64,000 bases of DNA from Lunularia cruciata (Eukaryota; Streptophyta; Marchantiopsida; Lunulariales; Lunulariaceae): assembly GCA_948567375.1 (NCBI GenBank), contig OX419758.1:53955473-54019472 (forward strand), in the 5' to 3' direction. Under the pieces are notes generated by a model, which saw only the letters and a program-made list of their open reading frames with translations, was not told the DNA's origin and ran no database searches. A program made the position numbers and the translations under genes. Below are positions 4,066 through 62,067 of this stretch, piece by piece; the first letter of the stretch is position 1, and every line of letters begins with the position of its first letter.

Positions 4066-5893
4066 AGACTATACGGATGAGGTAGGATGGTCAACGAGCA
4101 ATACTAGAAGAGAGTATACCAAATGCCACTTGCGGATCTCCTAGTAATGGAAGGTCACCCACATGGAAAACATCCTCTGCAAGGGCATCGTCCAAGAAGC
4201 GTGTGACAAAATCCTCCGATCCTACTGGCACTCCAAGAACACGAAGTCCATCTGTGGATGTGATACACCCCTCTGAAAGCTCAAGGTGTGGAGGGATACC
4301 TAAAGGGGACCATGCCCTACACTTTGACACCTTGACTCTCAAGCTTACTAGATGTAGCTTGGTAGTCAAGTAGTCAAAAGCCTGCCTAATCTGATCTACA
4401 AGGCATACAATGTGTGTATCATCTGCCAAGGAGGGAAATACACAACCTGGCATGGCCAAAGTAATAGATAGGAGAGCTCTAAAGTGAGCCATGGCAAATA
4501 AGTGCCCTCCCAAAGGATCTCCCTGACGTGTACAAACAATTGATTCCAAGACGGTGACTCCCTCTTGTGAACCACCATGCTGGTAGTAAAGAGAAGCATG
4601 AGAGCCATAAAAAGACCGCACAAAAGGAATGAGACTCGCCAAGGATCCACCAGCCTCCCTAAGCTCTCTAAAGATGGATGCACGTGAGACGCTATTAAAA
4701 GCATTCTCAACATCCACCTGTAGGATGACCCACTCCGGATGGATATCTAGGAGTGCTCTAATGCTTAGAGATATAGCCTCACATCCTCTAGGTGTAGCTA
4801 CTCCAAACTGATGTGGACTAAGGTGCTATCGAAAGTGAGAACGATGCTGAAGGACAATGGTACGACTGACCAAACGCAAAAAGATCTCTCCAATAGCAAT
4901 CGGTCTAATGCCTCCCGTGTCCTTCTCCATCGTGAGAAGTTGACTAGCACCTAACACCCGACTAACAGACATAGGAATGTCTCCTCTCGCTATTGTTGTA
5001 GCCACCTGAAACAACTCGGTAAAACCACTAGAAGGATCATCTGCCTGGAAGCAATCTCTAAGGTGCTCATAAACCATCCCTGACAAGCCTCTTGAGGAAA
5101 AGCAAGGGGCAATGCACAATGCTTGTGCAAATAGCGACCTATCAAGACATAAAGGCTGCTCAGGCTGATAATCGAAGACCTCTAGTGGTAGTCCCTCTAC
5201 TGCTATAGGATGCAATGAGCGTAGGGAAGAGATGGTCTCATCAGTAGGACTCGCTATAGACAAAGTGTGTAGCGCTCGTGCTGCTCTACTAAACTCTCCC
5301 GCCTTACCCAATGTCCTACATCGTTGTAATCGAGTGGAATTTGTGGTATCCTATGGTGATGCATGTCTCCTAAATCATGTAGCCCTAACAGACTCCTCTT
5401 GAAGGGTTGCACAATCCCCCGCTCGGAATTGACGAAATCTAGCCGCCACCTCTCAATGCCCCGCACGTCCCTCCTCTAGCATAATGAAGACACCATTGAG
5501 GGAGTAGGAGGAATAGGAACCATGCTAACTCGTCCAAGGGATCACGTGCCAAACGATCCAGTGGTAGGCCAAAAGCCTGTCTAGCCTCATCATGGAGTGT
5601 GCGGGGTAGCCTATGGAATAGACATGGACATGGAAAACTAGTCTCAAATAACCCCAAAATGCAACCCGCCTGAGAAGCTAACCACTCATATGACTTGATT
5701 GGTATCCCTAGAACGATCAACGAAGGTATAGAAGAAGCGTGCGTAATCCAGAGTGTCACTGTTGTCGATGTGGTCGCTCATCTCACATGGGCATCCCAAG
5801 TGGTCCAATCATAGTCCTTGTGCATCCTTTCCACATGGGTCTTTACCCCTTGCGAGGTAAAGCATCGGTGACACACCGGGCATGGTGTATCCT

Positions 5894-23055: not shown

Positions 23056-25076
23056 CATTTGAACCTCCTCAAAAGTCGATATGCTCCAGTTGCAATTATA
23101 ACGCTATATTCTGTAGTTTCTCTCCTCCCCATACGCAAGTTCAATGTTTCGATTCCAAGGTCCTCTATAATGAATTCAGGAAGATATTGACTCCGTCAAT
23201 GCTTACAAAGGTATTTGGACTATTCTCAGATAGTGGTTTTTAGGCAGTTATTGGGTAGCACGTGCACTTAGCATGTTCTCTCTTCGTTAACGTAAGGATC
23301 TGTTCAAAATTTTATTTACTCTTTATGAACCTAGAATAACAACAATTACAACCCAATGCACCTTTGCTCGATGTGCGAATTTCAACATCCCATATCCAAT
23401 TTCCAAATTGGGTGGCATCCAGAATGGACTTACTCTGCTCATGTTGGAAATTAGAGATGTTGCAAATTCTCGCAGGTCACCCCAAAATATTGGAGAGTAA
23501 CTCTGGTGCACTGACTTCAGAATATCTTATTCTTCATCTAATCTTTCAGCGTTTTAGTAGGAAATCGAAGCATTGCATGGAGTAGCCTGTTATCATTGGC
23601 AAGAAACGAACATTAGGGACTGAATGAAACGGCGGGTGGAGCATCAACCTTTTCAGGAGTATCAGAGATCTACCACCACCTCAGCTACTACTGACGAGGA
23701 GCGATCTCGCTCCATTACAGAGAGTTCTTCGTGATCAATCAAACACCACTCTTTACATATTGACTACAACTTGATTTCGATCGAAGGATAAAGGACGGTG
23801 CGCGTGCTGTGTAAAGTTAAGACTAACTCTAAAATTTGCAGGAGGTGGATTGACTATTATGTTCACCACAGTGTACTCTCAACATATTTTGTGTCCTAGA
23901 ATTTAGAGAGAGGAATTTCCCATTGACTTCAGGTGTTGCCTGTGAACAAAGTCAGGATTTAGCTTTAAAATTTGCACCGAGTAAAGGATAAAGAGCAGAT
24001 TACGTGCGAACCACATTGGCAGAGTTATTACACCAGCTTTTACTAAATTAGGTGCCTGGATAGATTGACTTCCATTAAACCATCGATCTGCCACAAACGT
24101 GTGGTTCAATTTGTTGTGTGGAGAACAAATTTGCTGACCAAATAATTGTCACCAATATCATTGGCTCTGGAATCGACGTATTAGGTATTCCTTGCTTAAT
24201 GTGGTGGCAAGTAGTCCATGACAAGGGTTTAAAGAAGCACTCTGTGCAAGAACTTCACGCTGGACCTGAGCAGGCACATTCTCCTTAGTAGCAAGGAATC
24301 AGGATCGATTTCCAAACTGCCATCATCGCAAACTATCCTTTCTTTCAGCATCAAAATACTCCTTCAAGTGTGCCTGTACGCTACGACCTTCTTGATCATG
24401 ATGTCTTCTAAATCCGGAGAGCAAGTTATTTCACGGACATAGAGCCTGTCACTAGATACATAAGCGGGGAAGCATTTATACGAATATGAAACTATCAATA
24501 CTTCGTGACACCAGTCTGTACCTCTTGTCCTTATGATTGCTCCCAAAACACATTAAACTTCTCAAAATCGGGTTACTTCTAGTGATCCAATCTCCACCTT
24601 CGAACATATAGGTGATAAACCAGCCACACAGAAAAACAGAAATATGAATTTTTTAATTTTTCCCCTCCAGCCAGTCTCACACATCATGCGGTCAAACGAG
24701 TCTTAAGGGAGTCTCTTTCGCAGTAAGAAACTCGCAGGTCGAACAAGAAAGATGGAAGTTACGACACGAAGAAGAAGAATCTAAAGAATTTCAAGTTGAC
24801 CTCAAAGTCTAGTGAGCCTGAAGGAAGGAAACCCTGAAACAAAAGTTTCCAAAAGTCCAATTTCTCAAATGTGAAATTGGGTAAGAACAGCTTCTCATAC
24901 ACCTGATCAGACGTTCCCAAACGGGCTCTTAGTCAACAACAACTCGATCTTTTGCCAGACGCATGACGTTTGAATGTTTGGATATTGTCCAATTGAAGAA
25001 AATAGAGATAAACCATCTTTCAACAGGAGTGACTGGAAGTATAACGGTTCAATTTCATACACACACAGGTTTCTAC

Positions 25077-25416
25077 ACCGTCAAAGCACAGGCATTCGAC
25101 TCGGCAGTTCAAAGGATTGTGAACACAGCCATTCTCCTAATCCTTTTAGCTTGATGTTTGTATTCGGAATAATTTATCTGCCACAAATTTAGTTTCTATG
25201 GCCCATTCTCCCGCTTTCGGATTCAGCATAAAGATCGATAGTGACATTGATAACTGCGGGTTTCCTTGCTGCGAAGTACTCCTTAGAAGCTGATTCTAGC
25301 TCCTCTGGAGTACCGGCTAGATACCCCTTTCCACCAAAGGCCTCCATCATCAATTCGTATCGGGCACCAGGAACAAATGAGGTGGGAGCTGGATCTTCTT
25401 TGTGAGGACCTGTGAT
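25077..25416 (-). pseudogene. Oxalyl-CoA decarboxylase last-exon tail, tandem unit 1
   Basis: A copy of the final ~228 bp of the decarboxylase coding region plus its ~110 bp 3' flank. It reads on the minus strand through the [11 protein letters not shown] and [20 protein letters not shown] region, with changes (for example [12 protein letters not shown]). It lacks the first part of the exon and the rest of the gene, so it cannot encode an enzyme. It is the member farthest from the gene. Confidence 0.9.
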
Positions 25417-25756
25417 CTATATCGTCAAAGCACAAACATCCGACTCGGCAGTTCAAAGGATTGTGAACACAGCCATTCTCCTAATCCTTTCAGCTTGGTG
25501 TTTGTATTCGGAATAATTTATCTGCCACAAATTTAGTTTCTACACATTCTCGGCTTTCGGATCCAGCGTAAGGATCGTTAGTGACATTGATAACTGCGGG
25601 TTTCCTTGCTGCGAAGTACTCCTTCGAAGCTGATTCTAGCTCCTCTGGAGTCCCGGCTAGATACCCCTTTCCACCAAAGGCCTCCATCATCAAATCGTCT
25701 CGGGCACCAGGAACAAATGAGGTGGGAGCTGGATCTTCTCTGTGAGGACCTGTGAT
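25417..25756 (-). pseudogene. Oxalyl-CoA decarboxylase last-exon tail, tandem unit 2
   Basis: A second copy, offset by 340 bp from unit 1 with the same junction (CCTGTGAT joined to CTATATCGTCAAAG). The frame remains open from the FGGKGY region through [12 protein letters not shown], then a small deletion replaces the normal GRMGHRN end with a longer unrelated tail ending at 25490. Confidence 0.9.
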
Positions 25757-26027
25757 CTATATCGTCAAAGCACAAACGTTCGACTCGGCAGTTCAAAGGA
25801 TTGTGAACACGGCCATTCTCCTAATCCTTTCAGCTTGGTGTTTGTATTCAGAATAATTTAACTCCCACAAATTTAGTTTCTGTGGCCCATTCTCCCGCTT
25901 TCGGATCCAGCATGAGGATCGATATAGTGACATTGATAACTGCGGGTTTCCTCGCTGCGAAAGACTCCTTCAAAGCTGATTCTAGCTCCTCTGGAGTCCC
26001 GGCTAGATACCCCTTTCCACCAAAGGC

Positions 26028-26529
26028 GGCAGATCGTGGTCATTCCCGGCATCAGACTGATGACACCTGTCGCATAACAAGCAGCTGGCTACCGGGAAAT
26101 GCTGAATGATCTCCAAACCGCCCGGGACTTCGACAATATGCCAATCAACCCGGCAAAGGCTGAATGAATTCCAAATAGTCCGGGAACTCAATAAGATCCC
26201 GATTAACCCGAAAAGTACTGAATAGATTCCAGAGACTCCGGGACTTCGCTAACGTTCCAAAAAGTTGTAATTAACACTGAAATACAATACGTGAAGTGAG
26301 GAGCAACAATCTTCACTTCTACTCATTACAGTTTTCACTTAATTAGAATATACGTACTTGTATTTAGCTTTTTGACCCCAAACCCAAATCACAAAACTTT
26401 CCTAAATAAAAAATCAATTCAATTACTGGCCCCACGTACTTAAACTCTTTTTCATCTCTTCTTAGTTCATAGGCGTTAGCTGGTTGTATTTGGAAGGATG
26501 AGTTTCTGGATTTGGTACCTCTTGTTAGT
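26028..26529. other. Insertion inside tandem unit 3
   Basis: About 502 bp foreign to the decarboxylase unit. It contains a minisatellite (26101-26262) and A+T-richer sequence afterwards. No open frame of note and no clear target duplication, so its origin is unknown. Confidence 0.75.
26101..26262. repeat. Minisatellite, ~58-bp unit, 2.8 copies
   Basis: Units begin at 26101, 26159 and 26218. Each has (G)CTGAATGAATTCCAAA-like and CCGGGACTTCGA-like blocks; the first two also end in ATCAACCCGG-like sequence. Copies are clearly diverged. Confidence 0.8.
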
Positions 26530-26719
26530 TCCATCGTCAAATCGTATTGGGCACCAGGAACAAATGAGGTGGGAGCTGGATCTTCTTTGTGAGGACCTGT
26601 GATCTATATCGTCAAAGCACAAACATTCGACTCGGCAGCTCAAAGGATTGTGAACACAGCCATTCTCCTAATCCTTTCAGCTTGGTGTTTGAATTCGGAA
26701 TAATTTAACTCCCACAAAT

Positions 26720-28739
26720 TTAGTTTCTATGGCCCATTCTCCCGCTTTCGGATCCAGCATAAGGATCGATAGTGACATTGATAACTGCAGGTTTCCTTGC
26801 TGCAAAAGACTCCTTCAAAGCTGATTCTAGCTCCTCTGGTGTCCCGGCTAGATACCCCTTTCCACCAAAGGCCTCCATCATCAAATCGTATCGGGCACCA
26901 GGAACAAATGAGGTGGGAGCTGGATCTTCTTTGTGAGGGCCTGTGATGTCTTCAGCAGGTCTCCGGTCCCCACCATAGACACCTCCATTATTGAAGATGA
27001 TAATCACCACTGGCAACTTGTATCGAACTAAAGTCTGAGGATTAAAAGGCAATTTTGCTTTAATAAGAGTGATATTCTCAAAACGTGAGAATCTAATGCC
27101 ACGTTGGATCAAACTGATGTCAGAAAAACTCACAAAATCGTCTGTTGGAAAGCTAAAATTTATAGAACAAAGAGGTCCTTTAACCAGGAGGGGCCTCTCA
27201 TTGCACGAGATAGTACTGTCTACCAATCTTCAAACAAGCAGTGAAATAGAAGCGCAATGGCAATGAGAAGTTTCAAAGGTAGGAAAAGAACAGTACCTCC
27301 ACCTCCATCCCGCTGAACCCGAATCCCGAGTCTCCTTCCACAGCAACTACGAGCCTTTCAGGTGATGTTACAGCTGCAGCAATTGCATAACCTAAACCAA
27401 CTCCCATTGTACCCCAAGTACCTGCATCGAGTCTCGTTCGAGGCTCTGTCTGTTCTAGAACTGACCGGGCGATATCCATGGTGTTGGCTCCTTCAGACAC
27501 TAGTATAGGAACAGGTGATCCTTCCGCTACTATTGCATCACGGATGATGCGCAGAGGAGTCAAGTAATTGAAGGGTACAACAACCTTAGCCAAAGAAGCG
27601 GCCATCTTCTGTATGTTATCCGAGGACTTTTTCTTAAGTTTCTGTAGCCATGGGTGCTGATCACCGAAGGTGAATGGATCGTCTTTAACTGCATCCGCAA
27701 TCTGCTGAACAACTACTCTAGCATCCCCGATCAAACCTAGTGCAGGCTTGCGAAATTCTATCTCATCCTTGGACATGTCCACTAGGATGAACTTCACGTT
27801 CTTAGACCAGCGGGGCGATTCTCCGAAATGGAGCAACCAGTTCAGCCTTGCACCTACGACCAAGACTACATCACTCTCGCCAACGGCTATAGACCTTGCT
27901 GCAGTAGTGGACAAGGGGTGAGAATCCGGGAGCAGGCCTTTACCCATGGGAGTTGCCAGGAAAGGAATGTTGGTAATCTTCACTAATCGCTTGATAGGCT
28001 CCTCTGCACGGGCATATGCAGCTCCCTTCCCGAACACAATAAGTGGTTTCTCCGCATGTCGTAACAATGAAACAGCTTGGCTCACCTCGTCCTCGGAAAC
28101 CTTAAGCTCTTTGGGAACTGATCCTTCCGCCCATGATGGGACAATTTCTTTTACAACTCCCAATAGCTTCTCGGCTTCATCCTCAGGTAAGGTCTCATGC
28201 AGAACATCCGAAGGAATATCGACATAACTAGCGCCTGGTCTTCCACTCAACGACGCAGCTAGTGCTTCGGAAACCACAGTCGGGATATCCTTGATACTCT
28301 TCGCTTTACCAGCGTACTTCACAAATGGCTTCACTATTTCTAGTTGGTCTAGTTCTTGAAAGTCCCCTTTGCCGACATCACTCTGTACACTAGAACCTGA
28401 TACCATAAGTATTGGCCAAGTGTTTATCATCCCATTGCTTAGACCCGCAAGACCATGGACTGCACCTGGTCCAGAGACTGTAAGAAGAACCCCTGGCTTC
28501 CCTGTCAAGTACCCAGCGGCACTGGCTGCATAACCGGCCGACTGTTCATTGTGGAATGCGATAAAACGAATGCCCTCTTTCACTGCACTAGTAGCTAGGT
28601 ATGTAACAGGTATTCCTACCACTCCAAACATATGTGCCACTCCAGCTTTAGCAAAGGCTCTTGCTGCCATCAAGTTTCCGTCACAGAGTCGCGGACTTTT
28701 CTCCTTTTGAGCAGCTGCCATACCATTGCAGCATGCCAT
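26720..28739 (-). CDS. OXC: Oxalyl-CoA decarboxylase (ThDP-dependent; 2-hydroxyacyl-CoA lyase family)
   Basis: Two exons, 28739-27297 and 27034-26720, joined in phase 0 across a 262-bp GT-AG intron; 585 residues, near the family norm of about 570. ThDP-enzyme features are complete: the N-terminal pyrimidine domain with catalytic Glu in FIAFHNEQSAGYAASA; the GKPGVLLTVSGPG block; a central nucleotide-binding-like domain (KPLIVFGKGAAY...VVLVVGARLNW); and the ThDP/Mg motif GDSGFGFSGMEVE...IIIFNNGG, which spans the splice junction. The C terminus reads [14 protein letters not shown]...[15 protein letters not shown] with no obvious peroxisomal tripeptide. It converts oxalyl-CoA to formyl-CoA and CO2; the plant homologue At5g17380 has this activity, and related enzymes act as 2-hydroxyacyl-CoA lyases, which remains an alternative. 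The gene lies 411 bp downstream of AAE3, same strand. The last exon is copied three times downstream. Confidence 0.92.
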
Positions 28740-29150
28740 GAATAACGGTTATAAGTGACCTCATGGAGAGTTCAGTTGAGACCTGTCATTCTACACTTTC
28801 TACAACCATGACCTACATTTAGCTTGGAAGGACTTGGTACAGGCAGAATTACAACAGAGAAGCGAGTCCAGGATGCATCAAGGATCCAAAAGCAGTATTT
28901 CCATAACATTTATGCTGGGGGAATCAGAAAGAAGGTGCAAATGAGAGGCATCAAATACAATGGCAGTGGACAAGATTCATGTGTGATTTCAAACTTGATC
29001 GACGATTGTCCGATTTATTTGGGAACTCAAAATGACTGTACAGCTCGGAGAGGGCATACCCTGTGTGCTCTCTTGAAGTGGAAACGCTATATTCACTGTT
29101 TGTTCGAGATTAGCAAGATTGTGCATGCAATCCCCACAAGATCATGCACG
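28740..29150 (-). promoter_or_regulatory. Compact spacer between AAE3 and the decarboxylase
   Basis: Only 411 bp separate the AAE3 stop codon from the decarboxylase ATG. It must hold the AAE3 3' UTR/terminator and the decarboxylase promoter and leader, unless the two are co-transcribed. I see no CACGTG and no clear TATA box. A 111-codon plus-strand frame here has no recognisable content. Confidence 0.5.
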
Positions 29151-32100
29151 CTAACCTGAAGTTGACTCTTTGCCGGTTGAAAGGAAGTGTTCAGCAACAA
29201 ATCGACGCTGAATTTTCCCTGTAGCTGTTCGAGGAACCGTTTCCGCGAAAAACAGGCGCTTCGGAATTTTGAAGGTTGCTAGGTTCTTCTTACAGTGAGC
29301 CAAAATGTCTTCCTCTGTGGCCTCCACGCTATTGTGAATGACGATAGCAGCATTTACCTGATCAAAAGCAGAGCATGTTAATGCTATCGCTATAGGATCT
29401 TTAGTTTGAAGTCACAAAGTTTGGAGAGGAGTCTGTCATGGTTTGCTTCATTTAGCTCGACCAATGGCAATTATAGAATCCTAAAGAATGGCAGACATGT
29501 ACGTCTCTGAATTCACATATGAGATGAATTAATATGAGATAAATGTCTGACTGCATGTCTGTTCGAAGATTTACCTCTTCTCCATATTTCTCGTCTGGGG
29601 CACCGAAGGTAACAGCTTCTGATACTGCTGGATGGGCCAAGAGTACGGCATCAACTTCTAGAGGAGAAATCTTCTCACCTGTAACATCAAAAAACGAAGT
29701 TAGAAGACGTAAACCAGATGTAAGCATTAACATGAGTTATCTTGTTGTTTTATCCTGAACTTATTGAGGAACGGAATACAGAACCCGTTGTAAACAACCC
29801 AATCCCATACCTACGTCTGACCGGACTTGACCCTGATATTTGACGGTAACGTAGTAAATGTCTTCACAATTCGCAGTTTACATAGGGAGGTAAGAACGCA
29901 TTTGCCTACAGACGAGGGTCAGTACCATGGTGACCTTGAGAATTATCTAAGCCTAGAAGTGTAACCTTGAGAAAGGCAGCGTCTTGCGCCATCAGTTTTA
30001 GTGGACTGCACATAAACTGTATAGCTCTCCCAATGAAAGACATCTAGACGCCACTTGTTGGGTGGGATTGTTGTTTCCTTCTCGTTTCCAGCGTAAGCTA
30101 GTCAAGGAGAGGCGGTCCCTCACTCGAGTCAAGGAGTAGAGTCTACTGTACAATAACTCTTCTCATTGTAATTTACATACCAATCCTTGTCGGATGACTG
30201 GGCCCAGTCATCCGACGAGGATTGGTATGTAATATTACAATGAGGACTGGGATTTACCCCTGCATGCTCTGAGTCAGTATGAGCCCATCAACACAAAAAC
30301 ACATCCTGTACATAGTAGGGGATAACGTGTGCTCACAAAGTAAATTGGCTATGATAGGTGGCCTGCATGGTAGCAGAAGGGGAATATTGAGGGAGGTTAA
30401 GCTGCAAAGCATGCGATAATAAGCAGACAGCAGACTCACCTCCGCGATTGATAAGCTCTTTGATGCGGCCTGTCAAAGTCAGGTAACCTTCTTCGTCAAG
30501 AATGCCTTGATCTCCAGTGTGAAACCATCCAAACTCAAAGGCTGTTTTGTTTGCATCCGGATTGTTCCTGTAGCCCTTAGTCACATTTGGCCCACGAATG
30601 CAAACTTCGCCTTCCTTTCCAGGAGGCAACACCTCCCCATCCGGGCTCAAAGTAGCAAGTTCAATTCCTGTAGCCTTCCCCACCGTACCCGGTTTGTGTG
30701 CACCGTGATGAGGGAGAGGATTTGAGGTCATTTGGTGGCTAGCCTCAGTCATTGCATACGCTTCTAAAACAGGGGCATGGAAGGATTCCTCGAGATTGGC
30801 TAAGACTGCTGGTGCAAGACTGGAACTGCATGCACGGATGAATCTCAACTTCGGGTACTCAGCCTCAGGTTTGGATTTGTGTTGAGCAAGAAGGATTTGA
30901 TGAATGGTTGGGACTGCTGTATACCATGTAGCTCCACCATCTCTCATATCCTTCCAGAAAGTTGACGCAGAAAAACGACCAGCAGCAGGTAAAATGGCTG
31001 CTCCTCCGGCATTGAGCGTGGAGAGAACACCAGCCATGAGACCATGAACATGGAAAAGAGGCATGACTATCAAGGTTCTGTCATCAGAAGTAAGCTCATA
31101 AGTTGCTGTGATATTCACGATCGAATGGGCTAGATTGGAGTGAGTGAGTGGCACTCCTTTAGGACGACTGGTGGTCCCTGAAGTATGCAGAAAAAGGACT
31201 TCATCATCTTCCTGGGGCACATCCCCAGCCTCAGCTTCATCCACAGTTTCCAACCTTGCTTTTGGAATGAGATTGACCTCCCCACTGCCAGAATCACCTT
31301 TCTCCCAGTGCACTCCTGCAACTGGCAACTTGAGTCTCTCTGCCGCACCCTCGGCAGCCTTATTCCCTTCCTTACCGGGAACAAGCAGCAAGCTAGAAGC
31401 TGCATCCTCCATGTAGAAGACAAATTCATCTGCCGTGTAAGCCGAGTTCAATGGGGCTGCGATCGCTCGTACTCTTGTGGTTGCCAGAAAGACTACCACA
31501 AACTGCAAGCAACAAAGGAGTTTAGCTAGAATTCAACCCACAAAACCAAACATTTCCGACTACGCATGTGTTGCATTTCCAGAGTAGCAACGGATCGCCA
31601 GGGACAGAGTTAAAGCGCACTCGACACCGTCAAATAGCTTGAAAAGCACAACTTCCTTCTTTGAGCTATTAGAATTCAACCATACAACAACAGCAAAACT
31701 ATGCACAGCTTATTAATCAAACAGCAAGCTCAGAAGTTTTGCAAGACGGACCTAACTGAGAATTCGAATTGATAGAGGCCAATCGAAACTCAGAAACGCC
31801 AATCGTTTAATCAACACAAATCTGCGGATCTATGAAATCCTGTGACAGAAATCTCGAGGCGGACTTGATCCTCGCAATTTCCAGATTAGTCGCCTAACAT
31901 TTTCACCTGTCAAAATCCAAGTACACTGAGCTGCGAACAAGCATGATGGGGAAAAAGGAGGAACTGGAACCTCCAATGTGTTCGGAAAAGCAAGGGAAAC
32001 AAGATCCCCGGGTTTGACTCCCGCTCGCCTCAGCGCAACAGCTGTCTTTTCTATTGCGGCATGCAACTCAGAGTGGGTCAGGCTCGAAACATTGGGAACA

Positions 32101-32174
32101 ATAAGAGCCTGCTTATCTCCATGCTCCTCTGCTGCCTTACTCAACAAAGCGTGTATAGTATGAACGCTCGTCAT
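29151..32174 (-). CDS. AAE3: Oxalate-CoA ligase (oxalyl-CoA synthetase, AAE3)
   Basis: Four exons: 32174-31971, 31502-30440, 29678-29575 and 29357-29151; introns of 468, 761 and 217 bp have GT-AG ends and compatible phases. The product is 525 residues (Arabidopsis AAE3 is 514). The frame is open upstream, but MTSVHTIHALL at 32174 is the first ATG. Adenylate-forming motifs are intact: P-loop LHTSGTTSRPKGVPLTHSN, MPLFHVHGL, YAMTEASHQM, GWFHTGDQGILDEEGYL, hinge GRIKELINRGGEKISP (across the second intron) and the catalytic Lys block PRTATGK near the C terminus. It activates oxalate with ATP and CoA to oxalyl-CoA, the first step of the cytosolic route oxalate, oxalyl-CoA, formyl-CoA, formate, CO2. 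Its product is the substrate of the adjacent decarboxylase. The C terminus (STSG) has no peroxisomal signal. Confidence 0.93.
30162..30245. repeat. Near-perfect ~41-bp-arm palindrome in AAE3 intron 2
   Basis: The sequence folds back on itself around CTGGGCCCAG (30198-30207) with virtually no loop. Arms run from TCATTGTAAT...GGATGACTGG to its complement CCAGTCATCC...ATTACAATGA, with one indel and one mismatch. It resembles a small foldback element or hairpin precursor. Confidence 0.92.
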
Positions 32175-59622: not shown

Positions 59623-62067
59623 ATGGGAAAAGGAGGAGAAGGAACTGATGGCCAACTCGGTGAAAAAGCGGAGAATCTGGCCGCTTGGATTCACGGAGTC
59701 GATGTTCTGAAAATTGAACCATTCGAGTTGCCAGCTGAGCTTGGTCAGTATTACCCATCTTGTACAGTTGCAAGAATCTTCATTGTTAAATCCTGATCAA
59801 GATCTAAAGGCACTTCACCTGAACTGATTGGGTCAACTTCAATTTGCAGCACTAGTGTAACACTCAATTTCTGTGTTCCAGATTGTTAAGATTCTTAAAC
59901 TAATGAACCGGTTGTTCAATTTAACAGCTCCCAATGATGTGAAGGTGGCTGTGAAAGCTGTTGGAATCTGTGGAAGTGATGTCCACTATCTCAAGGTATC
60001 TCTTGAATCATTGCTTCCTGAAGTCCTGCTATGCTATTACTTGACGGTAACATTGGATGGCATGTAGACGTATTGCCAACAATAGCAGTCTGTGTCTATT
60101 TTAAGAGAACTGGGTTTAGAGTGCGGAGACGTTCATTTTAGAAATTGGGAGCTAAGATAGATATTTTTATGCCTTCAATGTCTTTAGCAAATAAAGAGAT
60201 TCTTTAGCCTTTTCGTCGTTTTCTTGTATCTGAGCAAGTCTGATGTAAAAAGCTAAGAAACTTTATCATTCAACAAATCAAAGAAAAACAAGATTCTTCA
60301 CGTTTTTATTCATTGTGTTGGACAACAGCATATGAGATGCGGCGATTTCATAATGAAGGAACCTATGGTTATCGGTCACGAGTGTGCGGGAGTTGTGGAG
60401 GAGGTTGGTAGCAGCGTGAAGCACCTTGAAGTTGGGGACCGTGTCGCCCTTGAGCCAGGCATCTCATGTGGTAAATGTAAGCTTTGTAAAGGGGGGTTCT
60501 ACAACCTCTGCCTCGAGATGAAGTTCTTTGCGACACCCCCTGTCCACGGTTCTCTGGCTAATAGGGTATGTATGTATTCAACTTTTGCAAGTTTAATCGT
60601 AATCATGGCTAAACTGGACCAAGCTTATGAGAAAGTAGCTCCATGGGTTATATACTACACACTTCGCTGGTTTCTCATCACTACCTTCATGTCCCGTACG
60701 TTGTCTTATACCTCAATGAAGAGATGAACAATGGAAATCACCATTTTGGAAAGTGTTTGAGAACAGAAATCCGCAGAGCGTCAATGATCATCTTGTAGTC
60801 CATATGGGTCCTCACACTTGACTGTTGCGAAGCAAGCCGAGTTTCAATTCGTGGATACTGCATATTGGGCCTGCAGTCATTGACGAGGTTGTGTATCCGT
60901 CCTTCATGTGTGGCGGGTTATGTAAACTAAAAGGATGTGTGCTGATTCTGCAGGTTGTGCACCCGGGAGATTTATGCTTCAAGCTACCGGAAAATGTGTC
61001 TCTCGAAGAGGGAGCTATGTGCGAGCCTCTGAGCGTTGGAGTACATGCATGCCGCCGAGCTAATGTCGGGGCTGAGACACATGTCCTTATAATGGGGGCT
61101 GGTCCTATTGGCTTGGTCACTATGTTAGTGGCTCATGCTTTCGGAGCTCCTCGTATTATCATTGCAGATGTTCATCCCGCACGTTTGAAGGTCGCAAAGG
61201 AACTTGGAGCAGATGCTACGGTTCAGGTGACACAAAACTTGGAGGTTAGTACTAAAACTTTTCTTCAGCTGTCTTTGATGTCTCCTCACAACCCTATCAA
61301 ACGTCAAGAACCAATTCTTTTGGCTAGGCAATCCTGAGATTGGATATAAGTCTCTACAAATGATGTGCACTTATCAGTCTGCAACGAATCTTAAAACGTC
61401 AGTGCTGTTCTGAATTGAAATTTATGATCTGCAGGATGTTGATCAAGAGGTCCTAGAGCTTAATAAAGCTATGGGCTCGGACATTGACGTTACGATCGAT
61501 TGTGCTGGCTTCACAAAGACCATGACCCAGTCACTCAAGGCAACTCGATCAGGTGGAATGGTGTGCGTTGTTGGAATGGGAGACACTCAAATGACTATTC
61601 CTTTGACTCCTGCAGCTGCTCGGTGAGAGCCCATTTTTATATTTTGTCGGGCCGTGGATGCATACACTTCACCAATCATCAAGCACTTCTTACTGGACTA
61701 TCCTCTGAACTAAATGAAAACCAAGAACAGACACCCAAGATCGAGGAAGCCATTTGACTCTTGATTTCAAGTAACATAAGCTGATGGATCTTCAACCGAG
61801 GATATGGTATGAAACCTGAGGTTTTTGTGTTTACAACCGAAGATTCTGATATGGTCATGGTGTTGATTGTGCAGGGAAGTCGATATTCGTGGTGTTTTCA
61901 GATATAGGAACACGTACCCACTGTGTATCAACTTGCTTTCCTCGGGGAAACTTGATGTCAAGCCCCTGATTACTCATAGGTTTGGCTTTACACAACAGGA
62001 CGTGGAGGCTGCTTTCGCTACCAGTGCGGCTGGTGGTAATGCCATCAAAGTCATGTTTAATCTTTAG
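59623..62067 (+). CDS. SDH: Sorbitol dehydrogenase (zinc-dependent MDR family)
   Basis: Six exons: 59623-59743, 59928-59995, 60329-60565, 60954-61244, 61435-61622 and 61875-62067. All have GT-AG borders and the phases agree, giving 365 residues (Arabidopsis SDH is 364). Catalytic zinc ligands are present in [11 protein letters not shown] and [12 protein letters not shown]. The structural-zinc loop [16 protein letters not shown] has its four Cys. The NAD-binding Rossmann fold is [21 protein letters not shown] with an acidic residue in [12 protein letters not shown], which favours NAD over NADP. The plant signature [23 protein letters not shown] is intact. It oxidises sorbitol and other polyols to ketoses, probably in the cytosol. 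L-idonate dehydrogenase is a close relative in some plants and cannot be excluded by reading alone. No break or missing residue was seen. Confidence 0.93.

Follow-up and report, generated by a model that had tools for sequence, protein, structure and literature searches.

Neighbouring genes of the AAE3 ligase and oxalyl-CoA decarboxylase families in Lunularia cruciata

Results

Layout of the locus

The window analysed here is a stretch of 64,000 nucleotides of Lunularia cruciata DNA that contains zero N and sits in a contig of 69 Mb, the whole assembly comprising 566 Mb in 74 contigs. Two genes lie head to tail within it, one for an AAE3-type ligase (AAE3) and one for a decarboxylase of the oxalyl-CoA decarboxylase kind (OXC) (Table 1); as both are on the minus strand, AAE3 is the upstream gene of the pair. 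With exon borders set by homology and splice signals, translation of the spliced models gives a ligase of 525 amino acids from four exons and a decarboxylase of 585 amino acids from two, neither with an internal stop, and all four introns of the two genes together (468, 761, 217 and 262 bp) are GT-AG and spliceosomal. AAE3 and OXC are real genes, and the preliminary description, which had proposed an intact AAE3-type ligase gene and an intact decarboxylase gene of the OXC kind on a common strand, 411 bp apart and with plant-type introns, holds in each of these respects, the family identities coming from the match to 5ie0 and from the PRK09259 cut-off described below. The spacer between the genes contains a single AATAAA, about 131 nt past the AAE3 stop.

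Table 1. Features of the AAE3-OXC locus, in positions of the window.
Feature	Position	Strand	Remarks
AAE3 exon 1	31971..32174	-	start codon at 32174; spliced model
AAE3 exon 2	30440..31502	-	spliced model
AAE3 exon 3	29575..29678	-	spliced model
AAE3 exon 4 including stop	29151..29357	-	spliced model; whole protein matches 5ie0
Spacer, 411 bp	28740..29150	-	presumed site of the AAE3 3' end and of the OXC promoter
OXC exon 1	27297..28739	-	spliced model
OXC exon 2 including stop	26720..27034	-	spliced model; whole protein over PRK09259 cut-off
Three partial tandem copies of the OXC 3' end	25072..26640	-	outside the working genes

The three partial copies of the OXC 3' end have a unit of about 342-345 bp, comprising up to 75 codons plus flank, with about 91-96% identity among them over the aligned pieces. 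One of them is interrupted by an insertion at about 26028-26528, which carries 58-bp tandem repeats (26092-26265). A DNA search of the genome with one copy, in which very common words were skipped, gave matches at this locus only. A near-perfect hairpin is present in intron 2 of AAE3 at 30162-30244, with arms at 30173-30202 and 30203-30232 that are 97% complementary; its RNA fold has a z-score of -11.9, with none of 200 shuffles as good, and it may represent either a foldback element or a hairpin of the small-RNA kind. Elsewhere in the window a reverse transcriptase fragment (PF00078) at 4091-4825 marks a retroelement remnant, and a gene of the zinc-type alcohol dehydrogenase family (PF08240, PF00107) has exons at 60257-61337. 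The window has 26 listed open reading frames of at least 130 amino acids, four of which belong to the pair; 10 others were scanned with Pfam, four of them giving a match, and none of these 10 was recognised as another gene of the pathway. There were no tRNA or Rfam matches in the window.

Identity of the encoded enzymes

In a structure-sequence search residues 5-517 of AAE3 match the Arabidopsis oxalate-CoA ligase 5ie0 at 1.8e-206, with 62% identity over 512 amino acids, and the protein matches the oxalyl-CoA synthetase 6qjz at 2.9e-194, a likeness over the full length to solved plant oxalate-CoA ligases. The best NCBIfam model is that of the FadD7 family, at 528 bits, below its cut-off of 650. 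AAE3 is placed in the oxalyl-CoA synthetase family, and by analogy with assayed Arabidopsis relatives, the AAE3 of that plant being presumably At3g48990, its substrate is likely to be oxalate.

The decarboxylase scores 645 bits against the NCBIfam oxalyl-CoA decarboxylase model PRK09259 (NF006721), over the cut-off of 557, and 608 bits against TIGR03254, the stricter, bacterial OXC model, under its cut-off of 739; with HdaclCoAlyACT, the sole HACL model listed, it falls far short, at 266 against a cut-off of 600. Over the whole length the HACL/S structures reach 502 bits and the OXC structures 501, the best match overall being to HACL/S. The last 113 residues, on the other hand, give 105-109 bits with four OXC chains, which by molecule name and variant pairs represent three distinct enzymes, two chains being versions of one YfdU protein, and at most 79 bits with the HACL/S chains. 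This C-terminal part also has a tyrosine after NNGG (NNGGVYGG) and an ESG lid (AGSESGRM), as in 2c31 and 2q27, positions taken to be diagnostic of OXC. Where the bacterial enzyme has Tyr120-Glu121, a pair that is absent here, the window protein has Phe-Gln, which is also present in all five HACL/S chains compared; the likeness to HACL/S lies around this point and not in the C-terminal part.

As the HACL/S and OXC scores are alike and Phe-Gln is found in HACL/S, some lyase activity on 2-hydroxyacyl-CoAs is possible. Were the downstream gene to encode chiefly a 2-hydroxyacyl-CoA lyase, the pair would not serve one pathway, and the top whole-length structure, the Phe-Gln pair and the missed TIGR03254 cut-off would all fit with this; it is nevertheless improbable in view of the OXC-type C-terminal part with its tyrosine and lid, the passing of PRK09259 and the wide miss of the HACL model. 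The assayed Arabidopsis enzyme, AtOXC, which decarboxylates oxalyl-CoA in vitro, has Phe120, Gln121 and Tyr488 according to Foster et al (PMC8004701), and since Phe-Gln and Tyr are common to both proteins the window OXC has the plant OXC pattern. PMC11271303 classes as HACL/S several enzymes whose PDB chains are named oxalyl-CoA decarboxylase. By family the gene encodes a plant-type oxalyl-CoA decarboxylase, for which the Arabidopsis relative suggests oxalyl-CoA as substrate.

A six-frame search of the 566-Mb genome found one AAE3 and one OXC, the next match being 34% identical for AAE3 and, outside the locus, 27% identical for OXC, and since the best candidates alone were scored these copy counts are lower bounds. 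A search of the genome for the thiamine-diphosphate C-terminal domain gave eight matches, two of which are the OXC gene. Three of the others were inspected by eye and look like pyruvate decarboxylase (L001), pyruvate dehydrogenase E1 (L008) and a piece of acetolactate synthase (L002).

Ligase-decarboxylase neighbours in bacteria

A sample of 296 genomes was taken from the phylum of the genome of an Acidimicrobiaceae record (G001). OXC was found at E 1e-150 or better in eight of them, seven of these over the cut-off, and in three of the eight (G104, G158 and G082) a FadD7-family ligase lies near OXC. The ligase matches of a further genome (G190) are on other contigs only, and the remaining four have no FadD7-family ligase at E 1e-80. 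Within the family of G104 (101 genomes), OXC at E 1e-180 or better is present in eight and a FadD7-family match at E 1e-180 or better in four, three of which are over the cut-off; with 13 candidates scored per genome, no FadD7-family ligase was found in the other four OXC genomes. In all four cases found, the gene lies close to OXC, with gaps of 255 and 330 bp between divergent genes and of 1322 and 2487 bp between genes on the same strand. The phylum and family counts are not independent, because three of the four genomes are common to both. Consecutive locus numbers are also borne by Rv0118c (oxcA) and Rv0119 (FadD7), named in PMC12210973.

These actinobacterial neighbourhoods (G104, G158, G395 and G082) resemble the Lunularia locus in having an AAE3-like ligase beside OXC, and as the pairing recurs in one actinobacterial family a functional link between ligase and decarboxylase is favoured. 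They differ from it in layout, two being divergent and two having the genes 1.3-2.5 kb apart on one strand as against 411 bp, and in the ligase itself, for FadD7 of three genomes is only 41-45% identical to the window AAE3 (in one over 355 residues only). The bacterial oxc-frc arrangement (e.g. CP061244, by record labels) likewise sets OXC beside a gene that makes its substrate, although there this is a CoA transferase instead of an ATP-dependent ligase.

Search for a bacterial source of the pair

From at least 586 relatives the best 80 bacterial AAE3-like loci were kept, with flanks of 8 kb at most and shorter at contig ends (e.g. L039, L076, L078 and L081). At these loci the ligase is 44-57% identical to the window AAE3, and none of the best 80 has an orthologue of OXC in its flanks. 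Nor did any of eight genomes, chosen by us among the 80 loci and many of them incomplete MAGs, contain an OXC over the TIGR03254 cut-off. A distant thiamine-diphosphate enzyme, with 28-29% identity to OXC, lies close to the ligase at two loci of the 80 (L010 and L064); that of L010 has the acetolactate synthase PRK05858 as its best match, below cut-off, and that of L064 is known as an open reading frame alone. In the first of these, a Poribacteria MAG (L010:1459-4656), an AAE3-like ligase of 56% identity is followed after 57 bp by the acetolactate-synthase-like enzyme, and this is possibly another ligase-lyase pair.

Among plasmids, 80 records have a match to AAE3 or a related ligase at 1e-60 and 28 have OXC at 1e-80; only NZ_LR743510 has both among the matches listed (60 of the 80 ligase and 28 of the 28 OXC records), and there they are about 1.4 Mb apart. 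The viral contigs searched gave none. A tree of AAE3 made by a quick method from 85 rows, leaving out the FadD7 of G158 (L122) and of G395, has no resolution at its base and therefore shows distance, not placement. In this tree the AAE3-like ligase of a MAG labelled Bordetella parapertussis (L031) groups with that of a Bryobacterales MAG (L042) with support of 100, and the Bordetella label is probably wrong.

That the pair entered as a bacterial operon and gained its introns later might be suggested by the bacteria that hold ligase and OXC close together. It is, however, very unlikely, as the FadD7 proteins of such bacteria are so distant from the window AAE3 while the closest bacterial AAE3-like proteins, at up to 57% identity, are unpaired with OXC among the best 80 loci; transfer of a ready-made operon was accordingly set aside. 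Because none of the 80 loci is paired with OXC and none of the eight genomes has an OXC over the cut-off, formation or persistence of the pair in a eukaryote is favoured, the preliminary description having supposed a plant genome.

Chance and selection

Under our assumption of about 20,000 genes per genome, two given single-copy genes would be adjacent by chance about once in 10,000, and over all metabolism chance may give perhaps a fraction of one adjacent pair of consecutive enzymes per genome. With such an expectation and a single genome, the adjacency is suggestive but is not proof. Between the spacer and the first 1 kb upstream of the AAE3 gene there are 24 8-mers in common against a mean of 15.4, a value reached in 20 of 300 randomisations (first-order Markov resamplings); for words of nine and ten the observed value was reached in 86 and 45 of 300, respectively. 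The sharing of upstream words is not convincing. An extension of the cluster to formate dehydrogenase was also considered and rejected, the nine genome matches all being below the family cut-off and none lying on C7.

Discussion

With good confidence, the locus holds the only AAE3 and the only plant-type OXC detected in the genome, set head to tail; the pairing most likely arose within the eukaryotic lineage and not through transfer of a bacterial operon. AAE3 would couple oxalate to CoA at the cost of ATP, and the two enzymes, which by family correspond to the first two steps in breaking down oxalate, probably work in turn. Most likely each gene has its own promoter, that of OXC being within the 411-bp spacer. 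The same two enzyme families occur in the CoA-dependent oxalate pathway of Arabidopsis (PMC8004701, PMC9090294). In that plant the two genes are expressed together, and their products are cytosolic and act consecutively in vitro (PMC8004701, in which OXC is At5g17380). The Arabidopsis genes are unlinked and not adjacent as here. Arabidopsis with reduced OXC accumulates oxalyl-CoA (PMC8004701), so that matched levels of the two enzymes would make sense.

The preliminary description had also called the pair a two-gene cluster, possibly co-regulated. The adjacency of genes for consecutive steps stands; co-regulation would be a possibility of which the upstream words give no convincing sign, and Arabidopsis co-expresses the genes without linkage. 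We consider it slightly more probable than not that the enzymes are as named and that their adjacency is a chance neighbourhood without regulatory meaning. This would be consistent with the unconvincing upstream words, with co-expression of the unlinked Arabidopsis genes (PMC8004701), with the lack of another recognised pathway gene among the 10 reading frames scanned and with a linkage known from one genome; it sits less easily with two single-copy genes on one strand across a 411-bp gap and with the recurrence of ligase-OXC neighbourhoods in one actinobacterial family. A selected, co-regulated two-gene oxalate cluster, to which we would give roughly one chance in three, draws on that same bacterial recurrence, on the consecutive steps, single copies and short same-strand spacer, and on the oxalyl-CoA build-up reported in PMC8004701, but not on any clear regulatory words in common upstream. 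More tentatively still, and on the whole unlikely, the pair may be an operon-like plant arrangement for oxalate breakdown that is kept by selection and that arose separately from the OXC-FadD7 pairs of actinobacteria; matched expression of the two plant genes would then stop oxalyl-CoA from accumulating.

Plant metabolic gene clusters consist of neighbouring, non-homologous genes of one pathway. The Lunularia locus agrees with this in the adjacency of two non-homologous genes of the same pathway and differs from such clusters in general in having two genes only and in serving a breakdown pathway. Linkage of AAE3 and OXC in a plant was unreported in the titles and beginnings of abstracts among the matches listed, in a search that took in few of the subscription journals.

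By analogy, the parallel in bacteria points to oxalyl-CoA synthesis as a possible, and testable, function of FadD7-type ligases. If the Lunularia pair is kept by selection, its two single-copy genes, which serve a breakdown pathway, would provide a very small natural test of what makes genes acting in one plant pathway become neighbours.
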